Origin: Prauserella flavalba
GTDB taxonomy: Bacteria; Actinomycetota; Actinomycetes; Mycobacteriales; Pseudonocardiaceae
Reading direction: 5' to 3'
Assembly: GCF_003202235.1 (NCBI RefSeq)
Contig: NZ_MASU01000036.1
Span: forward strand, 1 to 47,191
DNA length: 47,191 bases
Shown: positions 10,729-47,191 of the stretch, one piece after another
Numbering within the stretch: position 1 is the stretch's first letter
Layout of the letters: the number at the start of each line of letters is the position of its first letter
Translations under genes and position numbers: made by a program
Notes under the pieces: model-generated
What the model saw: the letters and a program-made list of their open reading frames with translations, nothing else
Database searches by the model: none
What the model was told of the DNA's origin: nothing

Positions 10729-11315
10729 CGGGCTGGTGGCCGCGATCGGCGCGACCCTGCCCGGCGCGTCCTGGCAACGCTGCCGCACGCATTACACGGT
10801 GAACCTGATGTCGGTGTGCCCCAAGGCATCCTGGCCATGGGTGCGGACTCTGCTGCACTCGGTGTTCGACCAAGCCGACGCCGAATCCGTTGCCGCTCAG
10901 TACGACCGGACGCTCGACGCGTTGAGCCACAAGCTACCGAAGGTGGCCGAGCACCTGGACGCGGCCCGCGCGGACCTGCTGGCGTTCACCGCTTTCCCCA
11001 AGCAGATCTGGCGTCAGATCTGGAGCAATAACCCGCAGGAGGGGCTGAACAAGGAGATCCGCAGGCGCACCGACGTGGTCGGCATCTTCCCCGACCGCCA
11101 AGCCATCATCCGGCTCGTCGGCGCGGTCCTGGCCGAACAACACGACGAATGGATCGAAGGCCGCCGCTACCTCGGCCTGGACGTCCTGACCCGCTGCCGC
11201 ACCACCACCCAGCCCACCAACCCCGAGGAGGACACCACCCCAGCAGCCCTCACCGCATAACCCGACCACGGATTACGCGGTGACCTTCGATACACCACGT
11301 CTCTGGACTTGACCC
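10729..11315 (+). pseudogene. IS256-family transposase, 5'-truncated remnant with right end
   Basis: From about 10729 the frame reads AGLVAAIGATLPGASWQRCR then THYTVNLM, and later PKQIWRQIWSNNPQEGLNKE followed by IRRRTDVVGIFPDR. These are the C-terminal blocks of IS256 transposases, including the catalytic Glu region, to a TAA at 11258-11260. The N-terminal domain and both catalytic Asp residues are missing. After the stop, the sequence CGATACACCACGTCTCTGGA (about 11288) resembles a typical right end of actinobacterial IS256 elements. Sequence 10552-10728 upstream shows no transposase homology; I see no gene there. Confidence 0.75.
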
Positions 11316-15691: not shown

Positions 15692-16192
15692 TCAGTGGTG
15701 GTGTTCGCGGTCGTGTGGTTGGTGGTGGGTGAACATGGCCTGCACCTCGGTGTCGGCGCCGTGGGGGGCGAAGTGGTTGTGGTCGACGGTGAGGAACAGG
15801 GCTTCGGCGGTGAACCGGGTGAGGCCGTCGGGGCCGGTGCCGGTGGCTTCCAGGTGCAGTCGCCGGCCATGGCGGTGCTGCAGGCGTGCGGTGATGCGGT
15901 GTGGCTGGCCGAGCGGCACCGGTGCGAGGTAGTTGACGGTCAAGGTGCGGGTGACGGCGACTTCTTCCACGAGGTAGAGGACGAACCCGAACAGGTCGTC
16001 GCAGGCCGCCGAGATCGCGCCGCCGTGTGCCAAGCCGGGGGCGCCGCGGTGCCGCGGGTCGAAGGTGATGTCGGTGACCACGGTGTCCCCGTCGCGGTGG
16101 ACGTCCAGGTGCAGACCGGCCGGGTTGTCCGGTCCGCACCCCAGGCACTGAGGGTGGTGCGGTGGCAGCGAGATGGGCATGGGGTCAGCCAT
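15692..16192 (-). CDS. PaaI-type hotdog thioesterase
   Basis: About 166 residues from ATG 16192 (MADPMPISLPPHHPQCLGCG...). Motifs: CLGCGPDNPAGLHLDVHRDG, GAPGLAHGGAISAACDDLFG (catalytic-type HGG segment) and VTRTLTVNYLAPVPLG. This resembles cytosolic acyl-CoA thioesterases of the PaaI group, with a short His-rich tail. Its start overlaps the end of the upstream TetR gene by 8 nt, so the pair forms an operon; a longer frame upstream is inside that TetR gene. Confidence 0.8.
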   Translation of the reverse strand: MADPMPISLPPHHPQCLGCGPDNPAGLHLDVHRDGDTVVTDITFDPRHRGAPGLAHGGAISAACDDLFGFVLYLVEEVAVTRTLTVNYLAPVPLGQPHRITARLQHRHGRRLHLEATGTGPDGLTRFTAEALFLTVDHNHFAPHGADTEVQAMFTHHQPHDREHHH

Positions 16193-16865
16193 TGCGTGTC
16201 GATCCTTCGGTAGCGGCCGGCATGGCCGGGTCGCGGGGTTGAGATGGGCTTCGCCGGGTGGCGGCGGCGAACAGGGTGGCGGCGACATCGATGATGTTCT
16301 GGCGGTCGACCGGGAGTTCGCCGCTGAGCCAGGCCATGAGCAGTTCGGCGAGGCCGCCGGTGAGCAGGAGACCCGCGATCTGGTCATGGGGTGGGGAGAG
16401 TGCGTCGGCGCCGTGCAGAGCCTGGGCCTGGGTGGCGATCAGCTGGGCGAACTCGCGCAGCAGTTCGTGGCGTCGGGTGCGCAGCGGCTCGGCGGCGGCG
16501 GATTCCAGCATGGCCACACGGCCGATGCGCGGATCGCCGGTGAGCAGGTCGACGAACGCGCTGATCGCCGCCGTGGCCTTCCGGTAGGGATCACCGCCGG
16601 GGGTCGCCAGGGCGCGCAGCCCGACATCACGGATCCGCTCGGCGACCCGGTCGAGCACCGCCAGCAGCAGCTCGTCACGGTGGGCGAAACTCTCGTAGAA
16701 GTACCGCTCGGTCAGTCCTGCCCGCGCGCACACCGCGGTCATCGTGGTCTGCTGCCACCCTTCGGTGCCCAGCAGATCCAAGCCGGCTTCCAACAGCTGC
16801 TCGCGCCGCTGGTCGCGGCGTTGCTGAGAACTGACGCCTCGATAGCTGCGCTTCGGCATCGACAT
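16185..16865 (-). CDS. TetR-family regulator diverging from the SDR-LLM-P450 operon
   Basis: 226 residues from ATG 16865 (MSMPKRSYRGVSSQQRRDQR), or 224 from the in-frame ATG 16859. HTH region: LLEAGLDLLGTEGWQQTTMT, then AVCARAGLTERYFYESFAHR. The longer upstream frame covers the operator and is rejected. In mycobacteria a TetR gene next to an SDR gene and CYP136 is found at the Rv3057c-Rv3059 locus; the same neighbours occur here, so this is probably the local repressor of the 16954-20380 operon. Confidence 0.82.
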   Translation of the reverse strand: MSMPKRSYRGVSSQQRRDQRREQLLEAGLDLLGTEGWQQTTMTAVCARAGLTERYFYESFAHRDELLLAVLDRVAERIRDVGLRALATPGGDPYRKATAAISAFVDLLTGDPRIGRVAMLESAAAEPLRTRRHELLREFAQLIATQAQALHGADALSPPHDQIAGLLLTGGLAELLMAWLSGELPVDRQNIIDVAATLFAAATRRSPSQPRDPAMPAATEGSTRNG

Positions 16866-16883
16866 GCACCCATCTTGACATAC

Positions 16884-16923
16884 GTTCCTGTCAGAACCAT
16901 TCTGACTGTAGTTCCTGTCAGAA
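16884..16923. promoter_or_regulatory. Repeated TetR-type operator and promoter upstream of the SDR operon
   Basis: GTTCCTGTCAGAA occurs at 16884-16896 and again at 16911-16923. Between them, GTCAGAA-CCA-TTCTGAC (16890-16906) is an exact inverted repeat. A -35-like TTGACA lies at 16875-16880 with a weak -10 (CATTCT) 17 nt later for the rightward operon, so bound regulator would cover the promoter. Confidence 0.65.
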
Positions 16924-16953
16924 TTCGGTGGTCGGCAACGGAGGCGATACGAC

Positions 16954-17862
16954 GTGACGCAGCGAGGCAGGAAGGTCCGACGGCACGCGGAGACCGTGCC
17001 GGCACTTGCCGGTGTGGTGGTGGCGATCACCGGGGGTTCACGCGGAATCGGGCTGGCGACCGCTCAGGCCCTTGCCGCGGCGGGGGCCACGGTCGCGATC
17101 GGTGACCTCGATGTCCCACCGGGGTGGCTGGCGGACCAGCACCCCGCCGTCCGTGCCTGGCGGGTGGATGTGACCGACCAGGATGCGTTCGCCGGGTTCC
17201 TGGACGAGGTCGAGTCGACCTGCGGACCGCTGGATGTGCTGATCAACAATGCGGGGATCATGCCGTTGGGGTCGCTCGGTGACGAGCCGGCGTCGGTGGC
17301 GGCCCGGCAGTTGGCGATCAACCTCCATGCCGTGATCCACGGCAGCCGTGACGCTCTGCGCCGGATGCTTCCGCGTGGGCGGGGACACATCGTCAACGTG
17401 GCCTCGCAGGCGGGCAAAGTTGGCTTCCCCGGCGCGGCCACCTATTGCGCCACCAAACACGGTGTCGTGGGCTTGTCCGAGGCGTTGCGCGCCGAACTGC
17501 GGGGCAGTGGGGTGGCGGTGTCGTGTGTGATGCCCACGGTGGTAAGGACCGAATTGGCCACTGGGCTGGGTGAGTCCCCGCTGGTGCGGCCGGTCACGCC
17601 GCAGCAAGTGGCCGACGCGATCACGGCTGTGCTGCGTCGGCCGCGGTTCGACGTGTACGTGCCGCGGTCGCTGGCGGTGGTCAACCGGCTGCTCGTGCTG
17701 GCGCCCCGTGCGCTGCGCGACGCCCTGCTGCGGATCTCGGGCGCGGATCGGGTCCTCGCCGGCGCTGACCCGGTCGCCCGGGCTGGTTACGACGCCCGTG
17801 CTGTGCCCGAGCGCGGGCAGGACGCGATGGCCGACCGGCCGAGGGAACGGGAACGTCGATGA
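16954..17862 (+). CDS. Short-chain dehydrogenase/reductase (classical SDR)
   Basis: 302 residues from GTG 16954, GGAGG 10 nt upstream. Cofactor motif TGGSRGIG (26-33), NNAG at 98-101, catalytic Ser151 in VASQAGKVGFPG, and Tyr164/Lys168 in YCATK. An extension of about 60 residues after the core includes VYVPRSLAVVNRLLVLAPRA, probably membrane-proximal, as in mycobacterial SDRs of this type. NAD(P)-dependent alcohol/ketone oxidoreduction is expected. ATGA overlap with the LLM gene; the first gene of the CYP136-like operon. Confidence 0.85.
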   Translation: MTQRGRKVRRHAETVPALAGVVVAITGGSRGIGLATAQALAAAGATVAIGDLDVPPGWLADQHPAVRAWRVDVTDQDAFAGFLDEVESTCGPLDVLINNAGIMPLGSLGDEPASVAARQLAINLHAVIHGSRDALRRMLPRGRGHIVNVASQAGKVGFPGAATYCATKHGVVGLSEALRAELRGSGVAVSCVMPTVVRTELATGLGESPLVRPVTPQQVADAITAVLRRPRFDVYVPRSLAVVNRLLVLAPRALRDALLRISGADRVLAGADPVARAGYDARAVPERGQDAMADRPRERERR

Positions 17863-18908
17863 CGAGCGACGCGGCCACTCCTGCGGCGGTGCATCGTGGA
17901 CTGTCGCTCGTGTGCACCGGTGGGAATGTGCACGAGGTGGCGGCGATGGCCGCGGACGCCGAACGAGCGGGGTTCGAGTCGGTGTGGGCGGCGGAGTTCT
18001 ACGACCGCTCGGCGGTGGTCGCGGTGGCGGCGATGGCCGCGGTGACCGAGTCGATCACACTGGGCACCGGAATCGCCTACGCGTTCGGGCGCAGCCCCCT
18101 GGTGCTGGCCATCGAGGCGCGGGATCTGGACGCACTGTGCGGCGGTCGGCTGATCCTCGGACTGGGCACGGGAACACGGCGCATGCAGCAGGACTGGCAC
18201 AGCCTGTCCGGAGAACATCCCGCACCCCGGGTCGAGGAACTGGTGCCGCTGCTGCGCAGGCTGTCGCGGCTGGACGAGGGGCCGGTGCGGCACGAGGGCC
18301 GGTTCTACCGCGCACACGTGATCCCAACCGCGCCCGTCGCGGTCCCGACGCGGCCAGCGGTGCCGGTGTATCTGGCCGGGGTGAACACGCGCATGGTGCG
18401 CGCTGCCGGGGCGGTGGCCGACGGATTGGTGGGTCATCCACTGTTCACCCCGGAGTACCTGCGCCACACCGTGCGGCCTGCGCTGCAGGCGGGCGCCGAC
18501 CGCGCCGGACGCACCGGGCCAGTGCCGGTGGCCGGGTATGTGATCTGCGCGGTGGATCCCGACGAAGACCGTGCTCGCAGGATGGCCGCCGCGCAAATCG
18601 CGTTCTACGCCTCGGTGAAAACCTACGACTCCATCCTCACTCTGCACGGCTTCACCGACGAAGCGGGCGCCATCCGGGCGGCGCGTCGCGCTGGTGACCT
18701 GGAGGCGATGGTGGCCGCAGTGTCGGACGGGATGATCGACACCATCGCCGTGGCCGGCAGTCCTGAGCAGGTCCGCAGCCAGTTCGCCGCACGGTGGGCG
18801 GGTCTGTACGAGCGGACCCTGCTGTATCCGCCTTCCTTCGCCGGCCCGTCGGCCACCACCGCCGTGCTCGACGCCTTCGCACCACTCACCCGCACCCCTA
18901 CCACATAA
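17859..18908 (+). CDS. LLM-class flavin-dependent oxidoreductase
   Basis: 349 residues. Luciferase-like (bacterial luciferase/F420-type TIM barrel) motifs: AERAGFESVWAAEFYDRSAV, GTGIAYAFGRSPLVLAIEAR, LCGGRLILGLGTGTRRMQQD and LAGVNTRMVRAAGAVADGLV. It is clearly paralogous to the protein at 31343, with long shared blocks. The start overlaps the SDR stop (ATGA), and the P450 follows 11 nt later. FMN/FMNH2 or F420 as cofactor cannot be decided from sequence alone. Confidence 0.85.
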   Translation: MTSDAATPAAVHRGLSLVCTGGNVHEVAAMAADAERAGFESVWAAEFYDRSAVVAVAAMAAVTESITLGTGIAYAFGRSPLVLAIEARDLDALCGGRLILGLGTGTRRMQQDWHSLSGEHPAPRVEELVPLLRRLSRLDEGPVRHEGRFYRAHVIPTAPVAVPTRPAVPVYLAGVNTRMVRAAGAVADGLVGHPLFTPEYLRHTVRPALQAGADRAGRTGPVPVAGYVICAVDPDEDRARRMAAAQIAFYASVKTYDSILTLHGFTDEAGAIRAARRAGDLEAMVAAVSDGMIDTIAVAGSPEQVRSQFAARWAGLYERTLLYPPSFAGPSATTAVLDAFAPLTRTPTT

Positions 18909-18919
18909 GGAGAGCCGTC

Positions 18920-20380
18920 ATGGTCCACATCATCGAGCGCACCACCCAGGCGGCGCGGCAGCGCCTGTCCTCGGTGCTGGTCGCACCAGCACCCCGGGCG
19001 GTCGACGAGGCGTGGCGCCGGTTCAGCCGCCGCTGGCCCACCACTGACCTGGCCACCCCACCCGAGGGCAGCGGCCTGCGGGCGGTCCGCGGCGACTACG
19101 GCCCGCCCGTGGTGGGGCACCTGCTCGACTACATCCGCTTCGGCACCGAGTTCGGCCGCGAACGCTACGACCGCTACGGCCCGGTCACCTGGATGGGCGC
19201 GTTCGGCACCCGCGTCGCCGTGGTGGCAGGCCCCGAGGCGACCCAGCGCGTGTTCACCAACGCCGACAAAGCCTTCTCCCAAGCCGGCTGGCAGTTCCTC
19301 ATCGACCGGTTCTTCCACCGCGGGCTGATGCTGCTCGATTTCGACGAGCACAAGATGCACCGCCGCATCATGCAGCACGCCTTCACCCGCGACCGCCTCG
19401 CCGGCTACACCCACCAGATCAGCCCGCGTGTGCGCGCCACCATCCCCAACTGGCCGACCCAACGACCGGTACGGCTGTACTGGCTGCTCAAACGCCTCAC
19501 CCTGGACATCGCGACCCAGGTGTTCATGGGCGGCCGCGGCGGCTCCACCGACACCGAACGGATCAACCAGGCGTTCGTCGCCACCGTCCGCGCCGCCAGC
19601 GCGCTGGTGCGCGCCCCGCTGCCCGGCACCCGCTGGCGCGCCGGCGTACGCGGCCGCCGAGTCCTCGAAGACTACTTCGCCCAGCACCTGCCAGCCGCCC
19701 GCGCCAGCACCGGGGAGGACCTGTTCGCCGCGCTGTGCCAGGCCACCACCCCCGAAGGCGAGCACTTCAGCGACGACGACGTCATCAACCACATGATCTT
19801 TCTGATGATGGCCGCCCACGACACCGCCACCATCACCACCACCGCCGCCGCCTACTACCTCGCCACCCACCCCGACTGGCAAGACCGCGCCCGGCAGGAA
19901 TCCCTCGCCCTCGGCGACGCCCCCCTCGACATCGACGCCCTGGACAACCTCGACACCCTCGACCGCGTCATCAAAGAAGCCCTCCGGCTACTGGCCCCCG
20001 TGCCCCTCGTGATGCGCAAAACCGTCACCGACACCGACATCCTCGGCCACTACCTGCCCGCCGACACCCTCGTCGCCCTCGCCCCCGCCATCAACCACTA
20101 CGTGCCCGAATACTGGACCGACCCCGACACCTTCGACCCCGACCGCTTCGCCCCACACCGCCGCGAAGACCACCGTCATCGCTTCGCCTGGCTCCCCTTC
20201 GGCGGCGGCGTGCACAAATGCATCGGCATGCACTTCGGCACCCTCGAAGTCAAAACCATCCTGCACGAAATGCTGCGCACCACCCACTGGACCATTCCCC
20301 ACGGCTACCACATCCGCTGGGACAACACCTCCCTCCCCGTGCCCTCCGACGGACTCCCCGTACACCTCAACCCACTCTGA
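18920..20380 (+). CDS. Cytochrome P450, CYP136-like
   Basis: 486 residues from ATG 18920 (AAGGAGAG just upstream). It carries FFHRGLMLLDFDEHKMHRRI, the I-helix NHMIFLMMAAHDTAT, the ExxR motif in IKEALRLLAPV, and heme loop FGGGVHKCIGMHFG with Cys434 as thiolate ligand. From memory these blocks match mycobacterial CYP136 (Rv3059) unusually closely. The substrate of CYP136 is not firmly established. A redox partner gene (ferredoxin) is not seen nearby. The 155 nt after the stop contain no gene. Confidence 0.88.
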   Translation: MVHIIERTTQAARQRLSSVLVAPAPRAVDEAWRRFSRRWPTTDLATPPEGSGLRAVRGDYGPPVVGHLLDYIRFGTEFGRERYDRYGPVTWMGAFGTRVAVVAGPEATQRVFTNADKAFSQAGWQFLIDRFFHRGLMLLDFDEHKMHRRIMQHAFTRDRLAGYTHQISPRVRATIPNWPTQRPVRLYWLLKRLTLDIATQVFMGGRGGSTDTERINQAFVATVRAASALVRAPLPGTRWRAGVRGRRVLEDYFAQHLPAARASTGEDLFAALCQATTPEGEHFSDDDVINHMIFLMMAAHDTATITTTAAAYYLATHPDWQDRARQESLALGDAPLDIDALDNLDTLDRVIKEALRLLAPVPLVMRKTVTDTDILGHYLPADTLVALAPAINHYVPEYWTDPDTFDPDRFAPHRREDHRHRFAWLPFGGGVHKCIGMHFGTLEVKTILHEMLRTTHWTIPHGYHIRWDNTSLPVPSDGLPVHLNPL

Positions 20381-20535
20381 GCCCCCAACCGCGACACCTG
20401 CACCGTGCCAGCAACCACGAGGACACGGACACCCCCGGCCGGTGGCCAACTCGAAAGGGGACCGTCTCAGGCAAGCACGATCCCCAACGATAGGTGCACC
20501 GCAACGAACAGCACTCCGGCCGGCACCCAGCTCGG

Positions 20536-23304
20536 TTACTCGGGGCCGGCGGTGCGCTGTCCTTGGCGCAGGCGGCTGGCGACGTAGCTGGCGCGGTCGC
20601 CACCGTTTTCGCGGTGCCAGGCGCTGGCGGTGGTGTCGGCGACGCCGAGCAGGTCGGCGAGCATCTTCCAGTGGACCGAGCCGACCAGCGAGAGCCACGC
20701 GCCGTTGCGGGCGGTGCGGACACTGGGGACACCGAGCTTGCGCAGTCGAGTCTGCAGCGTGGCTGAGGTGATCGGCCGGTCGGGGCGCAGCCCGGGGAAC
20801 AGGTAGGGCGTCGGGCGGTCCCGCAGCGCGCCAGCGAGCGGGCGGCGGTTGGTGACGAGCCGGTGCAGCAGCGCGGAGAGCCGGGGCCGCAGCCACAAGG
20901 AATCGCGACCGAGACGCAGGCCGAGGATGCCGGGTTCGTCGGGATGGGCGAGGACATCGTCGGCGGTGAGGTTGACCAGGCGCCAGCAGCTTTGGCCGTA
21001 CTGCAGGACCAGGCAGCCGGCGACCCGGTCCGCCAGCGGCAGCGTGTCGTCGGTCTCCAGCGTGACGGCGAGCAGGACACGGTCGGTGTCGCTCATGATC
21101 TCCCGGTCGCCGGTGTGGCGCGAGGTGCCGATCGCGACGTGGGCCGGGGCCAGGCCGTTGGTCGCGGCCCACAGCAGGAACGAGCGGGCATGGTGCTGGC
21201 GGGGCCGATTGCGGATCAGCCAGCGGTCCACCACGGGTTGGGTGAGAGTGGCCAGGCTTGTGCCGCGGGTGCCGAGGTAGCTCAACAGCAGGCGGGCGCC
21301 GTCCAGCTTCCGGCGGAGGTGTTCACGCTGGTAGTACGTGAAGCAGGCGTCCTGCTCGGCGTGTTGGTGGACCAGCGGCATCAGGTGCCATCGGGCGTAG
21401 CGGGCCAGGATGGTCTTGTCGTGCGGGGTGGTCGCCCGCTCCAACAGGGTCTGGACGTCGCGGGTGAGCTGGGCGAGTTCTTCCTCGCGGGGTTCGAGGA
21501 GTTCGGCGAGCACCAGCAGGCCGCGCAGGTGCTGCACGGCGGTGGTCTGCCGCAACTCGTCGAGCGCTTGGTGGGTGCAGGCCAGTTCGCCGGTGACCAG
21601 CCGGCGGATGAGTTGCCCGCCGGGCCGGCGCAGGTACAGGCACAGCGAGTAGGGGTTGTCGTAGTTCTCCAGCAGCTCGGCCAGCGGCGCCAACCAGGCG
21701 GCCGGTTGCCCGTCGGGTTGGGTGAACACCTCGCCCAGGTCGCGGCGTGCGGTGCAGGACGGGCACTGGCCGCGGAGCAGACGGCCCATCGCTCCGCAGG
21801 TTGGGCACTGGTAGGAGAACGTGACGCCCGCGCAGTCCGGGCACAACGGTCCGGCAGCCTCGCGGCGGAACACCCCGGCCAGCTCACCGCAGCGGTGGCA
21901 GCGCGCGTGCGTGAGTCGTACGGCGTCCACACAGGACAGGCAGACCGGGCCTTCCGGCCAGTGCCGTTCGGCGCGGGCTGTGGTTCCGCACCGGGCGCAC
22001 GGGACCTGGGCGGCCAGGTGGCACGGCACGCACCTGGCCACACCGTCCGCACCGGGCATCGGCATCGACGGTCGTTGCCCGCAGTCGTCGCACGGTGGCC
22101 CGGGCCTTACCACTTCCCAGCACGCTTTGCACCACGGTCCATTGTGGTCGCGAGAGCACACGACCTTGCGAGCGCCGCAGCCCGAGCACGGTTCGGCCTG
22201 CGCCCGGCGGCGGCAGCGGTCACACCACGGTTCGCCGTCGGCGTCGCGATAGACCACCAACCGGGTCCGGCCGCAGTTACAGCACGGCTGACGCGGAATA
22301 GCCCGCTGAGCGCAGGCCCGGCAGCCGCCGGTGCTCACGATCCCGACCTTGCGGGTCTTGCCGCAGCGCGGGCACAGCACCTTCGGCGCACGCCGGTTAT
22401 CGCACCTCTCGCACAGCGGGCCCTCGTCGGTGAGCCGAGCCGCCGGCTTGTCCTCACCGCAGTCGACGCAGCGGCGCAATGGCCGTTGATGCTCGCGCTG
22501 GTAGCACGCCTTGCACACCGGCCATCCCTCGTCGCGGATGGCGACCGGTGCCGTCCGGCCGCACCGCGAGCAGGGTTCGGCCAAGTGCGCCTGGCGGCAC
22601 CGCTCGCACCACGCTCCCTCCTCGGTGTGAACGGCGGCCAAGACGACCTTGCCACAGACCCAGCACGGCTCGCGGGGAAGTGAGCCCGCCAGGATGGCTC
22701 GGGCAACCGCCGCCCAGTCCGTGATCAGCCGCTCGGTACCGCGCCGCTCACCGCGCAGCACATTGGAAATCGCCAGGCCGCGCAGGAACTGCACGGTCAG
22801 CGACGCCACCATGGGGTAGCGTTCGTCGGCCACCACATCCTCGCCGAACACCTCGGCGACCACCCGGTAGAGATCCCTGCGTGCCCGCTTCTCCTCGCAG
22901 CGCAGCACCTCGCGCAGCGCGCTGTCCGTGCGTGCGGCCGCCCACAATTCCAGTTCGGCAATGAATGCTGGGCGCACCACCGACGCGCACAGCACCCGAA
23001 CAGCACGCTCCACACGATCGAGGTTCGCCGGCGCCGCGGCATCGACCTCGACCTCGGCCTGCCGTACTGCCGCCTCATTGCGCTCCATCAGCGCGCGGAT
23101 CGTGGCTCCCAGCATCGCCTCCCGAGTGGGGAAGTGATGTAGCAACGCGCCCCGGCTGAACCCACCAGCGCGTTGCACCCGCACGGTTGTGGTCGCCGCA
23201 AGTCCGCGCGTGGTCAGCAACTCCACCGCGATCTGGACGATCCGCTGCCGTGTCGCCTCACGCTGCGCGGCCCGTATGCCCGAGGGCCTGCTGTCCGGCG
23301 GCAT
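20536..23304 (-). CDS. TetR domain - ten zinc ribbons - inactive tyrosine-recombinase-like domain fusion
   Basis: One uninterrupted frame of 922 residues from ATG 23304. Residues 1-210 form a TetR regulator: HTH RQRIVQIAVELLTTRGLAAT, FSRGALLHHFPTREAMLGA, then an all-helical ligand domain. Residues 214-517 contain 20 CxxC pairs making ten ribbons with a 30-34-residue period, first Cys at 214, 245, 279, 311, 341, 373, 405, 436, 469 and 500. Residues about 530-912 resemble an actinobacterial zinc-ribbon/XerD-like family, with LSYLGTRGTSLATLTQPVVD, RSFLLWAATNGLAPAHVA and WKMLADLLGVADTTASAWHR. The usual catalytic Arg motif is replaced (YGQSCWRLVNLTADDV), the HxxR box is RTARNGAW and the Tyr position reads Trp. 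So it is probably a DNA-binding rather than DNA-cutting module. An 18-bp palindrome lies just upstream. Confidence 0.85.
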   Translation of the reverse strand: MPPDSRPSGIRAAQREATRQRIVQIAVELLTTRGLAATTTVRVQRAGGFSRGALLHHFPTREAMLGATIRALMERNEAAVRQAEVEVDAAAPANLDRVERAVRVLCASVVRPAFIAELELWAAARTDSALREVLRCEEKRARRDLYRVVAEVFGEDVVADERYPMVASLTVQFLRGLAISNVLRGERRGTERLITDWAAVARAILAGSLPREPCWVCGKVVLAAVHTEEGAWCERCRQAHLAEPCSRCGRTAPVAIRDEGWPVCKACYQREHQRPLRRCVDCGEDKPAARLTDEGPLCERCDNRRAPKVLCPRCGKTRKVGIVSTGGCRACAQRAIPRQPCCNCGRTRLVVYRDADGEPWCDRCRRRAQAEPCSGCGARKVVCSRDHNGPWCKACWEVVRPGPPCDDCGQRPSMPMPGADGVARCVPCHLAAQVPCARCGTTARAERHWPEGPVCLSCVDAVRLTHARCHRCGELAGVFRREAAGPLCPDCAGVTFSYQCPTCGAMGRLLRGQCPSCTARRDLGEVFTQPDGQPAAWLAPLAELLENYDNPYSLCLYLRRPGGQLIRRLVTGELACTHQALDELRQTTAVQHLRGLLVLAELLEPREEELAQLTRDVQTLLERATTPHDKTILARYARWHLMPLVHQHAEQDACFTYYQREHLRRKLDGARLLLSYLGTRGTSLATLTQPVVDRWLIRNRPRQHHARSFLLWAATNGLAPAHVAIGTSRHTGDREIMSDTDRVLLAVTLETDDTLPLADRVAGCLVLQYGQSCWRLVNLTADDVLAHPDEPGILGLRLGRDSLWLRPRLSALLHRLVTNRRPLAGALRDRPTPYLFPGLRPDRPITSATLQTRLRKLGVPSVRTARNGAWLSLVGSVHWKMLADLLGVADTTASAWHRENGGDRASYVASRLRQGQRTAGPE

Positions 23305-23318
23305 GACCGAACCATTTC

Positions 23319-23336
23319 ACAGTCACATGTGACTGT
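23319..23336. promoter_or_regulatory. Perfect 18-bp palindrome upstream of the TetR-zinc-ribbon fusion
   Basis: ACAGTCACATGTGACTGT equals its own reverse complement. It ends 14 nt before the ATG. On the minus strand a TTGACA hexamer (23339-23334) overlaps its outer edge, so binding would block a -35 element. It is the natural candidate for autoregulation by the TetR domain. Confidence 0.75.
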
Positions 23337-23372
23337 CAATGTTCGAGGAGTGGGCGTCTGGCAGTGTGGGGT

Positions 23373-23400
23373 TACGGGTTCAAGTCCCGCCAGTGTGACC
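23373..23400 (+). other. tRNA 3'-end-like sequence (T-arm plus acceptor), possible attachment-site remnant
   Basis: TACGGGTTCAAGTCCCGCC has a T-stem (CGGG/CCCG) closing a loop TTCAAGT that fits the TTCRANY consensus, followed by an acceptor-like tail AGTGTGACC. No D-arm or anticodon arm is found upstream, so it is not a whole tRNA. Such fragments are left by integrative elements that use tRNA 3' ends. Chance similarity is possible. Confidence 0.35.
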
Positions 23401-23606
23401 GAGGCGTGGCCGGACCGTGTAGCCGCCGTCAGGGGCGTCGCGGCTGGTCCCCATGCCGGCACACCCAGCGCATCGCTGATGAGATCGGCCAGGCCGACGA
23501 CGTCGCCTGCGATCTCGTCGCCGTCGCGCGATGCAGCACACCATGGACGAACGACGTTCGATCGGAGTGCGAAGTCGAGTTGCGCAGGATCAACCGCGTG
23601 CCACGC

Positions 23607-23730: not shown

Positions 23731-24630
23731 CTACTCGTTGCCGAGCACGTCGGCGAGCGCCTCGTACTGCGCGTGGTGATCGGCGGCCGCCGGGAACAGG
23801 ACGAACTCCTCGACTCCGGCCGAGGCCAACTCGCGCAACCTGGCCGCGACCTCGGACGCCGAGCCGATGAGGGCATACCGCTCGATCTTGCCGAACGGTA
23901 TCCGGTACTGCCCTTCGATGAACCGTGCCGTCTCGGCGCGCCCCGCGTCATTCTGTCCGATGTGGACGAATGCGAGCAGACCGATGCGGGGGACAGGCCG
24001 GGCGACCTCGTCGCTCAGCGCGCGCAGCCGATCCCGCGCGCCGGCGATGCGCCCTGCGTCGGCCCACATGCCGAGCCACCCGTCGCCGAACAGCGTCGCC
24101 CGCCGGAGCGCCGCCTCGCTGCGCCCGCCGATCCAGATGGGTGGTGGTTTCGCGTGCGGCGACAGGGTCGGGACGGTGACGTGATACGGCGCGTCAACCG
24201 TGGCCGGCTTGCCGGACAACAGATCCGGCAGCGCGCGCAACACGGTGTCGGTGCGCCGGGCACGCTCGCCGACCGGCACGCCCGCCGCCGCCCACTCGTC
24301 CGGATTCTCGCCGCCCACGCCGATACCGAGGTCGACCCGCTCGTTGCTGAGCACCTGCAGCGAGGTGATCTGCTTCGCCGTCCACGCCGGATGACGCAAC
24401 GCCAGCAGCAGCACACCGAAGCCGAGCCGCACCCGTTCGGTGACGGCCGCGGCCGTGGCCAGTGCCACGGTGGCCTCCACCACCGGCGTGTGGAACGCGA
24501 GGTGGTCGCCGACCCACACCGAGTCGGCGCCGACGCGCTCAAGATGTTGTGCGGCACCGGCGATATCGGCCACGCCGGTGCCGAACGGATCGGAGATCGG
24601 CAGCATGACCCCGATGCGCGGCCTCACCAT
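23731..24630 (-). CDS. LLM-class (F420-dependent-type) oxidoreductase
   Basis: 299 residues from ATG 24630 (MVRPRIGVMLPISDPFGTGV); GTG at 24627 is an alternative that would make a 4-nt overlap with the SDR stop. Motifs: VGADSVWVGDHLAFHTPVVE, RVRLGFGVLLLALRHPAWTA, LQVLSNERVDLGIGVGGEN and PPIWIGGRSEAALRRATLFG. It belongs to a different LLM subgroup from the two paralogues at 17859 and 31343. Last gene of the leftward catabolic operon; probably an accessory monooxygenase or reductase of that pathway. The frame upstream to 25011 is a shadow of the SDR gene. Confidence 0.85.
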   Translation of the reverse strand: MVRPRIGVMLPISDPFGTGVADIAGAAQHLERVGADSVWVGDHLAFHTPVVEATVALATAAAVTERVRLGFGVLLLALRHPAWTAKQITSLQVLSNERVDLGIGVGGENPDEWAAAGVPVGERARRTDTVLRALPDLLSGKPATVDAPYHVTVPTLSPHAKPPPIWIGGRSEAALRRATLFGDGWLGMWADAGRIAGARDRLRALSDEVARPVPRIGLLAFVHIGQNDAGRAETARFIEGQYRIPFGKIERYALIGSASEVAARLRELASAGVEEFVLFPAAADHHAQYEALADVLGNE

Positions 24631-25397
24631 CCGGCCACCAGCCCACCGTCGACCACGATCGCCTGGCCGGTGAGGTACGCCGATGCGGGCGAGACCAGCA
24701 GGAGCAACGCGCCGTCCAGGTCTTCCGGCACCCCCCACCGCCGGGCGGCGATCCGGCGCATCGCGCGCCGGTGGAACCTCGGATCCTCGCGCAGGTGCGT
24801 GACCATGTCGGTGTCCACCCAGCCGGGGCACAGCGCGTTGACCGTGACGCCGCTCGATGCCCATTCCACGGCGAGCGAGCGGGTCAGGCCGAGCACGCCG
24901 GACTTGGACGCGACATACGGTGCCGCATACGGCTCGCCGACCAGGCCGAGCGCGCTGGCCACCGTCACGATCCGGCCCCAGCCGCGGGCGAGCATCCCGG
25001 GCGCGAGGCACCGGGTCAGCGTGAACACGCTGCGCAGGTTCACCGCCAGCACGTCGTCCCAGTCCGTTGTGGACATTTCTACCGCTGGTGCGGTCCTGGA
25101 CAGTCCAGCGTTGTTCACCAGGATGTCCGCGCCGCCCCAGCGCTGCTCGATCCGCTCGGCAAGTCGCTCACCGGCGTCGGGTTCACCCAGATCCGTGGGC
25201 AGCACGATGGTGTCGTTGCGCAGCGTGGCCGCTACCTCGTCCAGCCGGGCCTCGTCCCGCGCGACGAGCGCCACGCTCGCACCTGCCGCGTCGAGCACCT
25301 GGGCGGCTCGCGCGCCGATTCCCCGGCTCGCGCCGGTGATCACGGCGCGGCGCCCGTCGAGGGCGAACAGTTCCGCCGGGCTCGCCGCCGCGGTCAC
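24624..25397 (-). CDS. SDR-family oxidoreductase (BadH/FabG-like)
   Basis: 257 residues from GTG 25397, which overlaps the TetR stop (GTGA). Cofactor motif TGASRGIG (21-28), NNAG at 95-98, Ser148, Tyr161 and Lys165 (YVASK), and a C-terminal TGQAIVVDGGLVAGW typical of FabG-like SDRs. In this context it may oxidise a hydroxyacyl-CoA, as BadH does in cyclohexanecarboxylate degradation; that role is inference from neighbours (acyl-CoA ligase, dehydrogenase, hydratase, BadI-like crotonase). Confidence 0.85.
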   Translation of the reverse strand: MTAAASPAELFALDGRRAVITGASRGIGARAAQVLDAAGASVALVARDEARLDEVAATLRNDTIVLPTDLGEPDAGERLAERIEQRWGGADILVNNAGLSRTAPAVEMSTTDWDDVLAVNLRSVFTLTRCLAPGMLARGWGRIVTVASALGLVGEPYAAPYVASKSGVLGLTRSLAVEWASSGVTVNALCPGWVDTDMVTHLREDPRFHRRAMRRIAARRWGVPEDLDGALLLLVSPASAYLTGQAIVVDGGLVAGW

Positions 25398-37310: not shown

Positions 37311-37929
37311 GTGGTTGACGTGACGGAAATCTTGATCCACTGGCATGCCGGCCGGTCCCAGGCGGAGATCGCGACCAGCCTGGGCGTGGACCGCAAGACG
37401 GTGAAGAAGTACGTGTCCCCGGCCATCGCGGCCGGGCTGGCGCCCGGCGGGGCGGCGAAGCCGCCCCGGGAATGGGAGGCGCTGGTGCGGGAGTGGTTCC
37501 CGCAGCTGGACGACACCCGGTTGCGGCAGACGACCTGGCCGGAGATCGAAACCCACCGGGACTACATTGTGGCGCAGCTGCGGGCCGGGGTCACCAAGGC
37601 GACCATCCACCAGCGGCTGCGCGACGAGCACGGCCTGGCCGCGTCGCTGGCCTCGCTCAAGCGGTTCATCGCCGCGAACCTGCCCGAGGAGTCGATGCGC
37701 GAGCGGGTCACCGTCCTGCGCGATGATCCACCGCCGGGCGAGGAAGCCCAGATCGACTACGGGTTCCTCGGGACCTGGATCGACCCGGTCGGCGGCCAGA
37801 AACGCCGGATCTGGGCGTTCGTGATGGTGCTGGCCTGCTCGCGGCACCTGTTCGTCCGGCCGGTGATCTCGATGAACCAGCAGGTCCTGGACCGAGGCCC
37901 ATGTCGCGGCGTTCGCGTTCTTCGACGGT
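37311..37929 (+). pseudogene. istA: istA transposase, N-terminal part (interrupted)
   Basis: GTG 37311 with GAGGAGAA upstream. HTH: VVDVTEILIHWHAGRSQAEI then ATSLGVDRKTVKKYVSPAIA. The start of the DDE catalytic domain follows: PPPGEEAQIDYGFLGTWIDP, with the first Asp in QIDYG. Near 37881 one extra base shifts the frame after MNQQ; in the shifted frame the sequence continues SWTEAHVAAFAFFDG. It is then broken by the inserted element. The C-terminal part resumes at 40933. Homology across the break (FFDG then VPRRLVPDN) shows that they were one gene. Confidence 0.85.
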
Positions 37930-37996
37930 TATGCGGGTGTCGATACCGCGATCTCGAAGGCGTACCCGCGAGGATGGGTGTCCATCCGGCCGAGGA

Positions 37997-39049
37997 GTGC
38001 GGGTGCCCTGGCAACCGAGTTTGCTGCGCCGTGTCGACGCCGCGGGCCAGCCCGCGGTGTCGCTGGGTCATGCGCTTGTTGACGACTACTTGGCGTTCGT
38101 TGCGGCTCGGGGCCGCCCGAACACGCTGCTGGCGGCGGCCTACGACCTGAAGGTGTTCTTCATGGTCGTGCGGAAGGAGCCGACCGAGGTGGTGACGGCG
38201 GATGTCTTCGCGTTCATCACAGCGCAGCGGGCTCCTCGCCGCGGGTCGAGGGTTGTGCGGTTAGAGGACGGGGAGGCCGGGCTGTCGGCGAGGACGATCA
38301 AGAGGCGGCTCTCCAGCGTGTCAGGGCTGTTCGGCTACCTGATCACACGCGATGACGTCGCGTTGGACCGCAACCCGGTGCCGTCGGGCCTGGCCGGGCG
38401 CCGTCGGGGCACCCGTGGGGCACCGCTGCTACGGACGCCGCGCACCCTGCCGAGAGTGCTGGGCCCGGACGAGGTCGACGCCGTGCTGGGAGTCTTGAAC
38501 ACCCACCGGGACCGGGCGATGGTCTTGGCGATGCTGTTAGGCGGGCTGCGGCGCTGCGAGGTGCTGGCCTTGCGGCTGCCCGACTTGAGGCCGGGCGAGC
38601 GGCGAGTGTTCATCACGGAGGGCAAGGGAGGGCATCAGCGGCTCGTCCCGGTCTCCGCGCGGTTCTTCGCGGCGGTCGGGGAATACCTGGACCGCGAGCG
38701 GCCCGCGGCTGACCACGACCGGCTGTTCGTGGTCCTGCGCGGCCCGACACGCGGCCGGCCGCTGACGGCGGCGGGGCTGGACGAGATCGTCGCCGGCGCG
38801 CGCAAGCGGGCCGGCCTGCCGAAGCTGACCTGCCACCAGCTGCGGCACACTTGCCTGACCCGCCTGAGGGAGGCGGGAATGGCGCTGGAGGCGGTGCAGG
38901 CTCAGGCCGGGCACCGCTCGATCGAGTCGACCCGGATCTACCTCCACCTGGCCAACGCCTGGTTGGTCGAGCAATATCTCAGCGCGTCCGCAGCCATCGA
39001 CGCGGACCTCGCCGAACCGGGATCCATAGCGGCGGAAGGGGAATCCTGA
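37997..39049 (+). CDS. Tyrosine recombinase 1 (TnpA-like)
   Basis: About 350 residues from GTG 37997 (GTG 38003 has better spacing to GAGGA and is an alternative). N-terminal SAM-like core-binding domain: VDDYLAFVAARGRPNTLLAA and SARTIKRRLSSVSGLFGYLI. Catalytic residues are intact: Arg in LLGGLRRCEVLALRL, Lys in GKGGHQRLVPV, box II HQLRHTCLTRLREAGM, His in AQAGHRSIESTRIYLHLAN with the nucleophilic Tyr. The stop shares one base with the next ATG (TGATG). Likely functional as a protein. Confidence 0.85.
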   Translation: MRVPWQPSLLRRVDAAGQPAVSLGHALVDDYLAFVAARGRPNTLLAAAYDLKVFFMVVRKEPTEVVTADVFAFITAQRAPRRGSRVVRLEDGEAGLSARTIKRRLSSVSGLFGYLITRDDVALDRNPVPSGLAGRRRGTRGAPLLRTPRTLPRVLGPDEVDAVLGVLNTHRDRAMVLAMLLGGLRRCEVLALRLPDLRPGERRVFITEGKGGHQRLVPVSARFFAAVGEYLDRERPAADHDRLFVVLRGPTRGRPLTAAGLDEIVAGARKRAGLPKLTCHQLRHTCLTRLREAGMALEAVQAQAGHRSIESTRIYLHLANAWLVEQYLSASAAIDADLAEPGSIAAEGES

Positions 39050-40866
39050 TGCCCCGGCCGCTTCCGCTTGCGCAGCCTGATCTCGTGGCGTCCTATTTGG
39101 AGCATCGGGCCGCCCAGGGCATGGGCACCGACCACAAGGTCCGCTGGGGTGCACGAACGCTGCTGGCGAGGGTGCCCGACCTGGACTCGTTCCGCGGGCT
39201 TCCGCTGGACGAGCAGTTGGCGTTCAACCACGAGACGCACCGATTCATCGGCTAGCTCGCGGTCACCGCCCGGCTGCGCCCGGGAGCGGAGTACTTGGTC
39301 GCACGCCGTCCCAGGCTGGGCATCATCCTGGCGCGAATCGACCCGGAGCTGCACCTTCTGTTCACTGAGACCGCGAGGATGCTGGGCTTCCGCGACCACG
39401 GCGCGAACGCGCAGTTCAACCTTCTGGCGCACCTCGCAGCGCTGGCGGGCAAGCGGGCGCAGGAGCTGGTCCAGGCCGATTGGGACGAGGGACGTCGTCT
39501 GTTGTTGGAGGCCGCGGCGCGGATCCCCAACCGGGGTGTCAAAGAGCTGTCGACGTCGCTGTTCAACCTGGAGGCCACCCTCTTCCACGCCGGGTTGACC
39601 GATTCGCTGCCGCGCCGCCGCAATCCGGACCGGGCCGACATACGCGAGCGGGAGTGGGCGCAGATCCCACCCACGATGGCGGCGACGATGCGGGGTTACG
39701 TGGGGCAGATCGCGACCACGTTGCGGCCGGGGACGGTGAAAAACGCCGAGGCTACGCTGCGGGAGTTCGCGTTGCTGGTCTGCGCCGAGGATCCAGACAC
39801 CACACGGGTCGCCGACCTGCGACGGGCCCACATCGAGCGCTACAAGGCCTGGCTGCTGGAACGCCCCGCCGCTCGAGGCGGTCCCCTGCACCGCCACACA
39901 GTCCGGGACCGGCTGAGCAAGCTGCGGGGGTTCTTCCGCCGGCTGGACGAGTGGGACACCCCGGACCGCCCGGCGCGGCAGTTGGTGTTCGACAGCGACT
40001 TCCCGATCGCCGACGAGCCTCTGCCCCGGTTCCTCGATGACGCTGCCGCCGCGAAGTTGCTGGCCGCGGCCCGCCAGGATCCGGACCCGTTCGCACGGCT
40101 GGCGATCGAAATCCTTGCGCGCACAGGGATGCGCCGATCCGAGATGCTGGGTCTGACGATGGACGCGGTCGTGCTGATCGGCTCGGCCTACTGGCTGCGC
40201 GTCCCGGTCGGCAAGATGCACACCGACCGCTACGTCCCCCTGCACCCACAGCTGAAAGCGCTGATCGACGACTGGCTGGCCCGGCGGCCGGAGGGCCTGC
40301 GCTCCAACCTCCTGTTCACCGACCACGGTCGGCCGGTCAGCGCCTCCCGGATCGAGGCCGCCGTCCGCAACGCCGCCCAGCGAGCCGGTTTGGGCAGGGT
40401 CACACCGCACCAGCTCCGACACACCCTGGCCACCCAGGCCATCAACCGCGGCATGTCCCTGGAGGCCATCGCGGCCTTGCTTGGCCATCGATCTTTGTCC
40501 ATGACGCGCGTTTACGCCCGCATCGCTGACCGCACCGTGGCCGATGAGTACTTCGCCGTCTCCGAGCGCGTCGAGGCCCTCTACGACGCGCCCAAACACC
40601 TACCCGCCGACGCGGAAGGCTCCGAGATGCGCAAACTTCGGGCCGAGGTGCACCGGAGGATGCTCGGCAACGGCTACTGCGCCCGCCCGGTAGAGATGGA
40701 CTGCCACTTCGAATCCATCTGCGAGTCCTGCACCTTCTTCGTCACCACCATCGAGTTCCGCCCCACCCTGGAGCGCCAACGCGATGACGCGGACGCCAAG
40801 GGCCAGGTCGCTCGCAAACAGATCTTCGACGGTCTCATCGCCCGCCTCGACGATCAGGCATCCTGA
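39049..40866 (+). pseudogene. Tyrosine recombinase 2 (TnpB-like) with in-frame amber codon
   Basis: 605 codons from ATG 39049; TAG at 39253-39255 (codon 69) interrupts an otherwise continuous frame (THRFIG-stop-LAVTARLRPGAEYLV), probably TGG to TAG. The rest is intact, with catalytic Arg in ARTGMRRSEMLGLTM, box II HQLRHTLATQAINRGM and LLGHRSLSMTRVYARI carrying His and Tyr. The C-terminus has a Cys cluster, GYCARPVEMDCHFESICESC, as in Tn554 TnpB relatives. Translation could restart at TTG 39295, giving a protein lacking the first 82 residues. Confidence 0.8.
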
Positions 40867-40932: not shown

Positions 40933-41966
40933 GGGTGCCGCGCCGGCTGGTGCCGGACAACCTGCGCACCGGCGTCGAACGCACCGACCTCTACGATCCG
41001 AAGATCAACCGCTCCTATGCCGAGCTCGCCGCGCACTACGCGACGCTGGTCGACCCGGCCCGGCGCGGCAAGCCGAAGGACAAACCCCGGGTCGAGCGGC
41101 CGATGCCCTACATCCGGGACAGCTTCTGGCGCGGCCGGGAGTTCACCTCGCTGCAGCAGATGCAGCAGGCCGCGCTGGCCTGGTGCACCACGGTCGCCGG
41201 CCGCCGCTCGTCACGGGCATTGCAGGGCGCCTCACCGCTGAGCGTGTTCGCCGAACGCGAGGCCGCGGCGCTGGCGCCGTTGCCGCGGCGGCCGTTCGAG
41301 CTGGCGACCTGGTCGCGCGGCACCATCGGACCCGACATCCACCTCAAGGTCGGCAAGACGCTCTACTCGGTGCCCTGGCGGCACATGGGCCGCAAGGTCG
41401 ACGCCCGCACCACCGCGGCCACGGTCCAGATCTTCGACAACGGCGAGCTGATCGCCACCCACCCGTTCCAGGCGGTCGGCAAACGTACCGAGCCCGGGCA
41501 CTATCCGCCGGAAAAGGTCGCCTTCCAGCTGCGGAACCCGGACTGGTGTCGCACCCGCGCCACCGAACTCGGCGAGCACGTCGCCGCCATCATCGAGGAC
41601 CTGTTGCAGGTCAACGCGATCTTCCGGCTGCGGGCCGCGCAGAAGATCATCGCGCTGGCCGACACCTACGACCCCGTCCGGCTCGATGCGGCCTGCGCCA
41701 AGGCGACCGCGGTCGGCGACCTGACCCTGCGCACGGTCAAGGGCCTGCTGGCCGCGGGCCTGGAAACCGACCCCGTCGACGACGACACCCGCCCAGGTGA
41801 CGGGGGCGCGGCCGCGTTCCTGCACGGCCCCTCGCGGTTGTTCGTGAACGTCGTGGCCATGCCCACCGCGGACGAAGCGTCCGTCGCGGACACCGCCACC
41901 ACGGACGCCGCTCACCCCGGACCGGGCCAGCCCGGCCGCGGCAGCGATGCGGGGGTGTCCGCGTGA
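40933..41966 (+). pseudogene. istA: istA transposase, C-terminal part
   Basis: Resumes GVPRRLVPDNLRTGVERTDL then YDPKINRSYAELAAHYATLV, the second Asp region of the DDE domain, followed by the Mu-type C-terminal beta-barrel (RGTIGPDIHLKVGKTLYSVP) and the tail RLDAACAKATAVGDLTLRTV. Its 3' end overlaps istB by 4 nt (GTGA). Starting translation at GTG 40935 would give only the C-terminal domain. Confidence 0.85.
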
Positions 41967-45861: not shown

Positions 45862-47191
45862 GCGTCGTGGACTGTAGTTGGTGATCCGCTTGCGCGCTGG
45901 CAGGCGGGGTTCGGTGAGGTGTTTGGGCTGGTGGCGGGCCGGTTCGCGCAGGTGCAGTCGCGGCGCCGGGCGCGGCTGTACCTGCTGGGGCTGCTGTCGG
46001 GGGCCGAGCGCAAGAACTCCTGGACGCTCGCCGAGCAGGCCGGCGAACTGAGCCCGGATGGCATGCAGCGGCTGCTGAACTGTCTACGCCTGGGACGCCG
46101 AGGCGGTGCGCGATGACCTGCGCGGCTACGTGCTGGACCGGCTGGGTGATGCGGCCGGTGTGCTGGCCGCCGACGAGACCGGATTCCTGAAGAAAGGCAC
46201 CCGCTCCGCTGGCGTTCAGCGGCAGTACTCCGGCACGGCGGGCCGGATCGAGAACTGTCAGCTCGGGGTGTTCCTGGCCTACGTGTCACCGCGGGGGCGG
46301 GCGCTGGTCGACCGGGAGCTGTACCTGCCGCGCTCCTGGACCGACGATCCGCAGCGCTGCGCCGAGGCCGGGATCGGCGACGAGGTCGGCTTCGCCACCA
46401 AGCCGGAGCTGGCGCGGCGGATGCTGCAGCGGCTGCTGGCCGCGCACGGGCACCAGGCGGTGCCGTGGTTCACCGCCGATGAGGCCTACGGCGACAACCC
46501 CGGACTGCGCGCCTGGCTGGACGAGCAGAACCTCAACTACGTGATGGCCGTGTCCTGCGACCAGCGGTTCGCCACCCCGACCGGCCCGCAACGCGCCGAC
46601 CAGCTGGCCGCCGCGGCACCCAGACGCGGCTGGCAGCGGCTCTCGGCCGGCGACGGGAGCAAGGGCCAGCGACTCTACGACTGGTTGCTGCTCGACCCCG
46701 GAGCCGACCAGCACCACCTGCTGGTCCGTCGCTCGATCAGCAAGCCCAGCGAGCTGGCCTACTACATCTGCCACGCCAACCAGCCGGTCCCGGTCGCCGA
46801 GCTGGTCCGGGTCGCCGGGTCCCGGTGGGGCATCGAGGAAACATTCCAGTTCGCCAAGAACGAGACCGGCCTGGACCACTACCAGGTCCGCCGCTACGAC
46901 GCCTGGTACCGGCACATCACGCTCTCGATGCTCGCCGCGGCGTTCCTCGCCGTCACCGCCCACACCGAGCGCGCACGAACCGCGTCAAAGGGGGCACCAC
47001 AGGCGGCATCGACCAGCTGATCCCGTTGTCCTGCAACGAAATCCGGCGCCTCTGGGCCAAGCTGACCCACCCCGATCACCCCCGAGCCCATGCCGACCAC
47101 TGGTCAGCCTGGCGCCGACTCCACCAAACCCGCGCCAAGCGCAGCCACTACCAGCGACAACGCCTCAAACATCACAGCCTGCGGCTGCCGT
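45832..47191 (+). pseudogene. IS701-type transposase with two frameshifts, 3' end off the window
   Basis: Part 1: ASWTVVGDPLARWQAGFGEV, then VQSRRRARLYLLGLLSGAER and LSPDGMQRLLN. Near 46082 the frame shifts to YAWDAEAVRDDLRGYVLDRL. Part 2 holds the catalytic segments AADETGFLKKGTRSAG, WFTADEAYGDNPGLRAWL and GSRWGIEETFQFAKNETGLD (DDE). Near 46983 a second shift leads to VKGGTTGGIDQLIPLSCNEI then RRLWAKLTH, reading open to the window edge. All blocks match IS701 transposases. The gene is disrupted unless both shifts are sequencing errors. Confidence 0.8.

Follow-up and report, generated by a model that had tools for sequence, protein, structure and literature searches.

Actinobacterial Tn554-like pairs (Famint36/41) consist of a short and a very long tyrosine recombinase in tandem on plasmids (PMC3414803). 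They resemble the three-gene unit treated here, in which a short and a long protein likewise occur in tandem on actinobacterial plasmids. However, the pair on plasmid 1 of Arthrobacter FB24 had no zinc-ribbon array, carried no helix-turn-helix (HTH) gene between or after its members, and kept a catalytic-looking motif in the long protein. Assignment of the unit to Famint41 was considered and rejected, the unit lacking Tn554-like character in a comparison made with the Arthrobacter pair only. GInts (ginABCD) are recombinase operons with a degenerate partner, GinC, which lacks the first Arg, and a small protein (PMC5385486). They differ from the unit in having three recombinases, and the word zinc was absent from the text; they offer a precedent for a degenerate recombinase partner. 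The word was also absent from the part of the tyrosine recombinase classification that was searched (PMC8138268). RIT elements are three adjacent tyrosine recombinase genes, whereas the second gene of our unit encoded an HTH_26 protein. Neither the unit nor its fusion to a TetR regulator was found described among the best-ranked matches of larger result sets from the open-licence literature.

A TetR regulator joined to a zinc-ribbon array

The window, that is, the whole 47,191-nucleotide stretch of Prauserella flavalba DNA analysed here, is the entire contig C36 of an 8.1-Mb draft genome. Its fused gene was a single open frame of 922 codons beginning with ATG (Table 1), as claimed in an earlier note on this DNA, which gave no strand; the gene lies on the minus strand. 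In the Pfam search with the fused protein, TetR_N matched residues 22-67 above the cut-off (E 1.3e-7), demonstrating a TetR-family HTH. TetR_C_6, a BetI-type C-terminal domain and the candidate alpha-helical ligand/dimerisation domain, matched residues 97-201 weakly and below the cut-off (E 4.4e-4); free-standing TetR orthologues aligned throughout. Exactly 20 CxxC motifs were counted between residues 214 and 517, making ten ribbons and agreeing with the number noted earlier, and all 40 motif cysteines were intact. Full-length close relatives carried 28 CxxC motifs (14 ribbons), indicating that the array is not a product of chance. With C4 ribbons followed by the common C-terminal region, the window protein belongs to an actinobacterial family, and the earlier recognition of the zinc-ribbon/XerD-like module as such a family was correct. 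The last 405 residues matched no curated family of their own in the profile search. A structure database search with the full protein returned TetR structures only, and the C-terminal profile, run against solved structures, had no match below E 0.35. No match was obtained with P0001 in the phage search or in the defence-system search (PADLOC).

Table 1. Features of the fused gene and its surroundings in the window (residue numbers refer to the fused protein)
Feature	Position	Strand	Basis
P450 gene, convergent with the fused gene	18794-20380
Flank common to both A. acididurans copies, including the 3' part of the convergent P450 gene	19875-20532		DNA identity
Point just past the stop codon where copies with different flanks cease matching (probable right boundary of the unit)	20530-20535	-	pairwise DNA comparison
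Fused gene P0001, 922 aa	20536-23304	-	one open frame
Probable pseudo-recombinase C-terminal region, residues 518-922	20539-21753	-	PHROG integrase matches of 3 of 22 relatives; column counts
Ten zinc ribbons, residues 208-517	21754-22683	-	20 CxxC counted
Fusion junction (TetR ...AGS followed by LPREPCW...)	22680-22684	-	tetR homology ends at 22684, third-gene homology starts at 22680
TetR part, residues 1-207	22684-23304	-	Pfam TetR_N; DNA homology to free-standing tetR
Palindrome ACAGTCACATGTGACTGT, 18 bp, 14 bp before the ATG	23319-23336		same place in five of five tetR genes
Luciferase-like monooxygenase frame, 426 bp beyond the other side of the fused gene	23731-25011	-

Mobile DNA was abundant in the window. 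Two adjacent open tyrosine recombinase genes of 382 and 523 aa were located at 37901-39049 and 39295-40866 on the plus strand (Phage_integrase E 2.9e-32 and 7e-34), kin to the recombinase of the unit only at superfamily level, and were followed at 40935-41966 by a frame with a Mu-type transposase C-terminal domain. A Mutator-family transposase fragment was seen at 10736-11260 and a DDE transposase near the contig end at 46106-47020. The stretch 15724-20373, with a luciferase-like monooxygenase and the P450 gene, is a large duplication of contig C12 of the same genome around 307933-311917, with 92% identity over 17898-20373 and 84.5% over 15724-16948. A tRNA-like stretch noticed by eye near 23361-23401 was rejected, as neither ARAGORN nor Rfam found a tRNA there.

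Sources of the two halves and their junction

Orthologues of residues 1-207 were found in four genomes (G132, G117, G170 and G179; loci L069-L072) at 80-82% identity, all of them free-standing; in the genome search the values were 81-84% for three of them, and 61% across a longer stretch for G179. Their stop codons lie 2 to 10 codons past the point where the window protein departs, indicating that its TetR part is almost complete. An enoyl-CoA hydratase gene stood directly after the free-standing tetR in all four loci (88.9-100% identical to the G117 hydratase), and an AMP-ligase gene came next in three of the four, being absent from the G117 stretch. These regulators presumably control the adjacent genes. 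No hydratase more than 44% identical to the G117 hydratase was present in the window genome, which thus has no orthologue of it. In four of the five tetR genes, the palindrome, common to the window gene and the free-standing ones, agreed at all six outer bases of each arm, and in L072 it had one change; judged by its sequence and placement, it is probably the TetR operator, overlapping a TTGACA box. Box and palindrome were both kept in the window as in the four other tetR genes. Searched across the window genome, the operator pattern occurred without mismatch only at the fused gene's own promoter, and with one mismatch at C7:296367, directly ahead of a different TetR gene (35% identical).

The remaining 715 residues (208-922) were 98 and 96% identical to two genes of Amycolatopsis acididurans (L081 and L078), 87% identical in Amycolatopsis sp. 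2-2 and 79% in A. antarctica. At the DNA level, positions 19875-22680 matched the two A. acididurans copies with 97.9 and 96.7% identity, ending at the ends of those contigs. Both of these genes were intact third genes of the unit: ahead of them lay an open frame of 419 codons for the recombinase and the gene of a 127-residue HTH_26 protein. They share the C-terminus and the last ten ribbons with the window protein but carry 14 ribbons, have no TetR part and are preceded by the recombinase and HTH_26 genes, in whose place the window copy has TetR.

A second copy in the window genome, on contig C24 (L009), was 88% identical and retained an open recombinase and HTH gene. A frameshift in the ribbon region had broken its third gene up into two frames, of 241 and 676 codons, the latter open and covering residues 257-922. 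The surrounding 18 kb was also present in P. endophytica (contig C16, L027) at 99.98%, and bore, beside the unit, MerR-like and metal P-type ATPase-like genes named from their translations. A further copy, disrupted by a stop codon and by some 7 kb of inserted DNA, occurred in P. endophytica, P. muralis, A. marina, A. palatopharyngis and A. roodepoortensis and, as far as the data extend, without its last part in Saccharopolyspora endophytica. In L026 (12820-14385) and its twins L062, L063, L073 and L074, the broken third gene left an open frame of 522 residues with 26 CxxC motifs; copies of the L026 type in several genera gave identical match values.

The longest tetR DNA match ran from 22684 to 23356, and nothing intervened between the tetR and third-gene homologies at the junction. 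The TetR part lost its 2 to 10 terminal codons and the third gene its first four ribbons; both breakpoints fall at domain borders. The fusion described in the earlier note was confirmed, and the protein is an unusual one. At the other end of the gene, the match between copies with different flanks broke off within an interval from 25 bp upstream to 14 bp downstream of the third-gene stop codon, making this point the probable right boundary of the unit; in copies sharing a flank the match continued past it (L009 with L028; L078 with L081 and the window). A core repeat was sought without success. A left end 652 bp before the recombinase start was considered but not adopted, since this is the start of a conserved coding stretch that contains an SGGKDS motif. 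This stretch had no Pfam match, and we take it to be PAPS reductase-like. It ended as a truncated frame some 70-270 bp before the recombinase in six copies (L009, L027, L078, L080, L081 and L082) and had no match in the other 21 sequences searched, including the broken close copies; it was perhaps the target gene of the insertion.

The fusion was seen in the window genome only: in one of four genomes of the genus, one of 60 relatives, one of 249 family genomes, one of 298 genomes sampled from the order (searched with 335 residues taken from the TetR end) and none of ten named carriers of the zinc-ribbon half. These samples overlap, and scoring was limited to 14, 3 and 7 candidates per genome for the 60 relatives, the 249 family genomes and the 298 order genomes, respectively, so that weaker places could be missed, although a full fusion should rank first. 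None of 247 plasmid records had a place covering 80% of the fused protein. The earlier proposal that the TetR fusion is the new part held. The same proposal named the window protein as the candidate for an undescribed system, which did not stand as worded, the fusion being confined to one genome; in every relative examined, the halves were separate genes, the very finding that had been set out as counting against it.

The three-gene unit and its degenerate third protein

By gene content and sequence, the unit comprises a tyrosine recombinase, a small Cro-like HTH protein and a zinc-ribbon protein read as a pseudo-recombinase, with 14 ribbons in A. acididurans. The HTH and recombinase genes, some partial or in two frames, lay just upstream in 12 of 19 genome-scan loci, and the remaining seven were truncated or split copies; both genes were present in nine of the 11 genome-search loci examined for neighbours. 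An annotated integrase, an HTH regulator and the long gene were found together in six of eight plasmid regions around family matches, while region H13 had the HTH and long genes only and H1, which bore no annotation, had only an HTH fragment. The module was thus confirmed to be tied to a recombinase unit. Plasmid pNit of Rhodococcus rhodochrous (L113) carried two integrase/HTH/long-gene sets in tandem; an unfused TetR gene was also observed just downstream of these sets. The C-terminal region was matched in 249 plasmid records, with at least 80% of the query covered in 199, and among the 30 matches listed the annotations were hypothetical protein, recombinase XerD, site-specific integrase, phage integrase family protein, and Fis or XRE regulator. 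Among actinobacteria, the three-gene unit is common, both on plasmids and on chromosomes.

Three of 22 members of the third-gene family matched a PHROG integrase profile (best E 9.7e-9), showing sequence homology to integrases for the family; three of 22 matched Pfam Phage_integrase weakly (best 0.0094), and the window protein alone matched no integrase profile. Profile comparisons of the family with the partner recombinases were not significant (E 0.45; E 0.13; best 0.11). To assign the catalytic positions, we compared motif spacing with that of the partner recombinases and the XerD motif, rather than using a structural alignment. On this assignment, the window protein has Ser at Arg I, Arg at the His of HxxR, Val after the conserved Gly and Trp at the Tyr position. 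The earlier note had the Arg, HxxR and Tyr positions replaced; Arg I, the His and the Tyr are indeed replaced, but the Arg of HxxR is kept (R866), so that its statement on Arg was half right. None of the 22 members showed the full R...HxxR...H/W...Y set: Arg I was present in four, the His of HxxR in none and its Arg in 21. His directly after the Gly was found in none and one position later in ten (Ala in the window protein), and Trp replaced the catalytic Tyr in 21. These column counts indicate that the family is probably non-catalytic, with the caveat of another Tyr, 11 residues after the Trp position, kept in 21 of the 22. The degenerate active site, as judged from the aligned columns, is a trait of the whole family rather than of the window protein.

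Origin and fate of the fused gene

Pairwise omega between third genes was 0.17-0.34, indicating purifying selection on the family; the TetR halves compared with the window gave 0.15-0.20, a value reflecting mostly the time before the fusion. The window copy differed from its nearest A. acididurans counterpart at 41 positions, 33 of which could be assigned to a branch. With junction codon 208 left out and codon 830 resolved site by site, eight nonsynonymous and six synonymous changes were specific to the window, against five and 13 on the A. acididurans branch (no significant difference, Fisher P=0.15). The 14 window changes fitted neutrality (P=0.14) as well as an omega of 0.2 (P=0.09) or 0.27 (P=0.21) and are thus compatible both with neutrality and with constraint. 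Only about 0.5 stop codons would be expected in 15 random changes, showing that the open frame says little about constraint.

Taking the observed sources, junction, intact frame, kept palindrome and missing hydratase orthologue together, we consider the gene to be a recent chimera that represses itself and is otherwise a young by-product under little constraint, with a probability of roughly two in three. The event would have been a rearrangement, perhaps one deletion, placing a 5'-truncated third gene in frame behind the 3' end of a tetR that came from a fatty-acid-type operon. The fused protein would be made from the tetR promoter, dimerise through its TetR half, bind the palindrome and repress its own gene, and its ligand may be of the acyl-CoA type, to judge from the neighbour genes of the TetR orthologues. 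The appended part is predicted to form a rod of zinc ribbons with a non-catalytic recombinase fold at its end; the ancestral third protein may have been a non-cleaving partner of the recombinase that bridges DNA or helps to choose sites. The chimera is separated from the recombinase and HTH genes of its own unit and from the target operon, and beyond autoregulation it is therefore most likely a young by-product.

The same near-complete TetR part, intact frame, palindrome, full set of motif cysteines and domain-border breakpoints might also belong to a working new regulator kept by selection, in which the ribbons and pseudo-recombinase provide the TetR dimer with another surface for binding DNA or protein, and the ligand, once bound, alters DNA architecture or brings in a recombinase. 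This we regard as unlikely. The fusion is the longest uninterrupted version of the third gene found in the window genome, the C24 gene being split by its frameshift; however, the 676-codon C24 frame is itself open, so that the genome may not need another copy. Occurrence in one genome, an operator matched without mismatch only at the gene's own promoter and the want of a clear sign of constraint since the fusion also argue against selection for such a role. Substitutions compatible with neutrality are equally what a pseudogene that has already fallen silent would show, whether untranscribed or yielding a protein that is unfolded and degraded, and no sigma-70-type promoter was found in 20300-23500 by a scan of a kind that is weak in high-GC actinobacteria. 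Silence is nevertheless rather improbable, as the frame has neither stop nor frameshift and the TTGACA box persists with the palindrome.

A draft contig and a fusion seen once would suit an assembly artefact that joined two unrelated stretches, but we consider this very improbable: each side is unique in the genome at its level of identity (the next tetR match is at 35% and the next zinc-ribbon match at 88%), on the right the sequence continues collinearly into the same P450 flank that A. acididurans has, and the left side bears the tetR palindrome. It is also a long shot that the chimera acts in trans with the C24 recombinase, whose own third gene is split by the frameshift. If it did, a ligand-responsive TetR would place a mobile recombinase unit under metabolic control, and the operator would become a new docking site for that unit.

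Read as a recent chimera, the fused gene is a natural domain swap caught early. Relatives of both parents are in hand (96-98% identical for the third gene and 80-82% for TetR), and its origin can therefore be stated almost base by base. The family behind the fusion is worth more than the fusion itself, and it is the three-gene unit, source of the C-terminal part, that holds the wider novelty. In that unit, a recombinase relative that probably lacks the catalytic residues bears a long zinc-ribbon array, and its role as a partner is directly testable.
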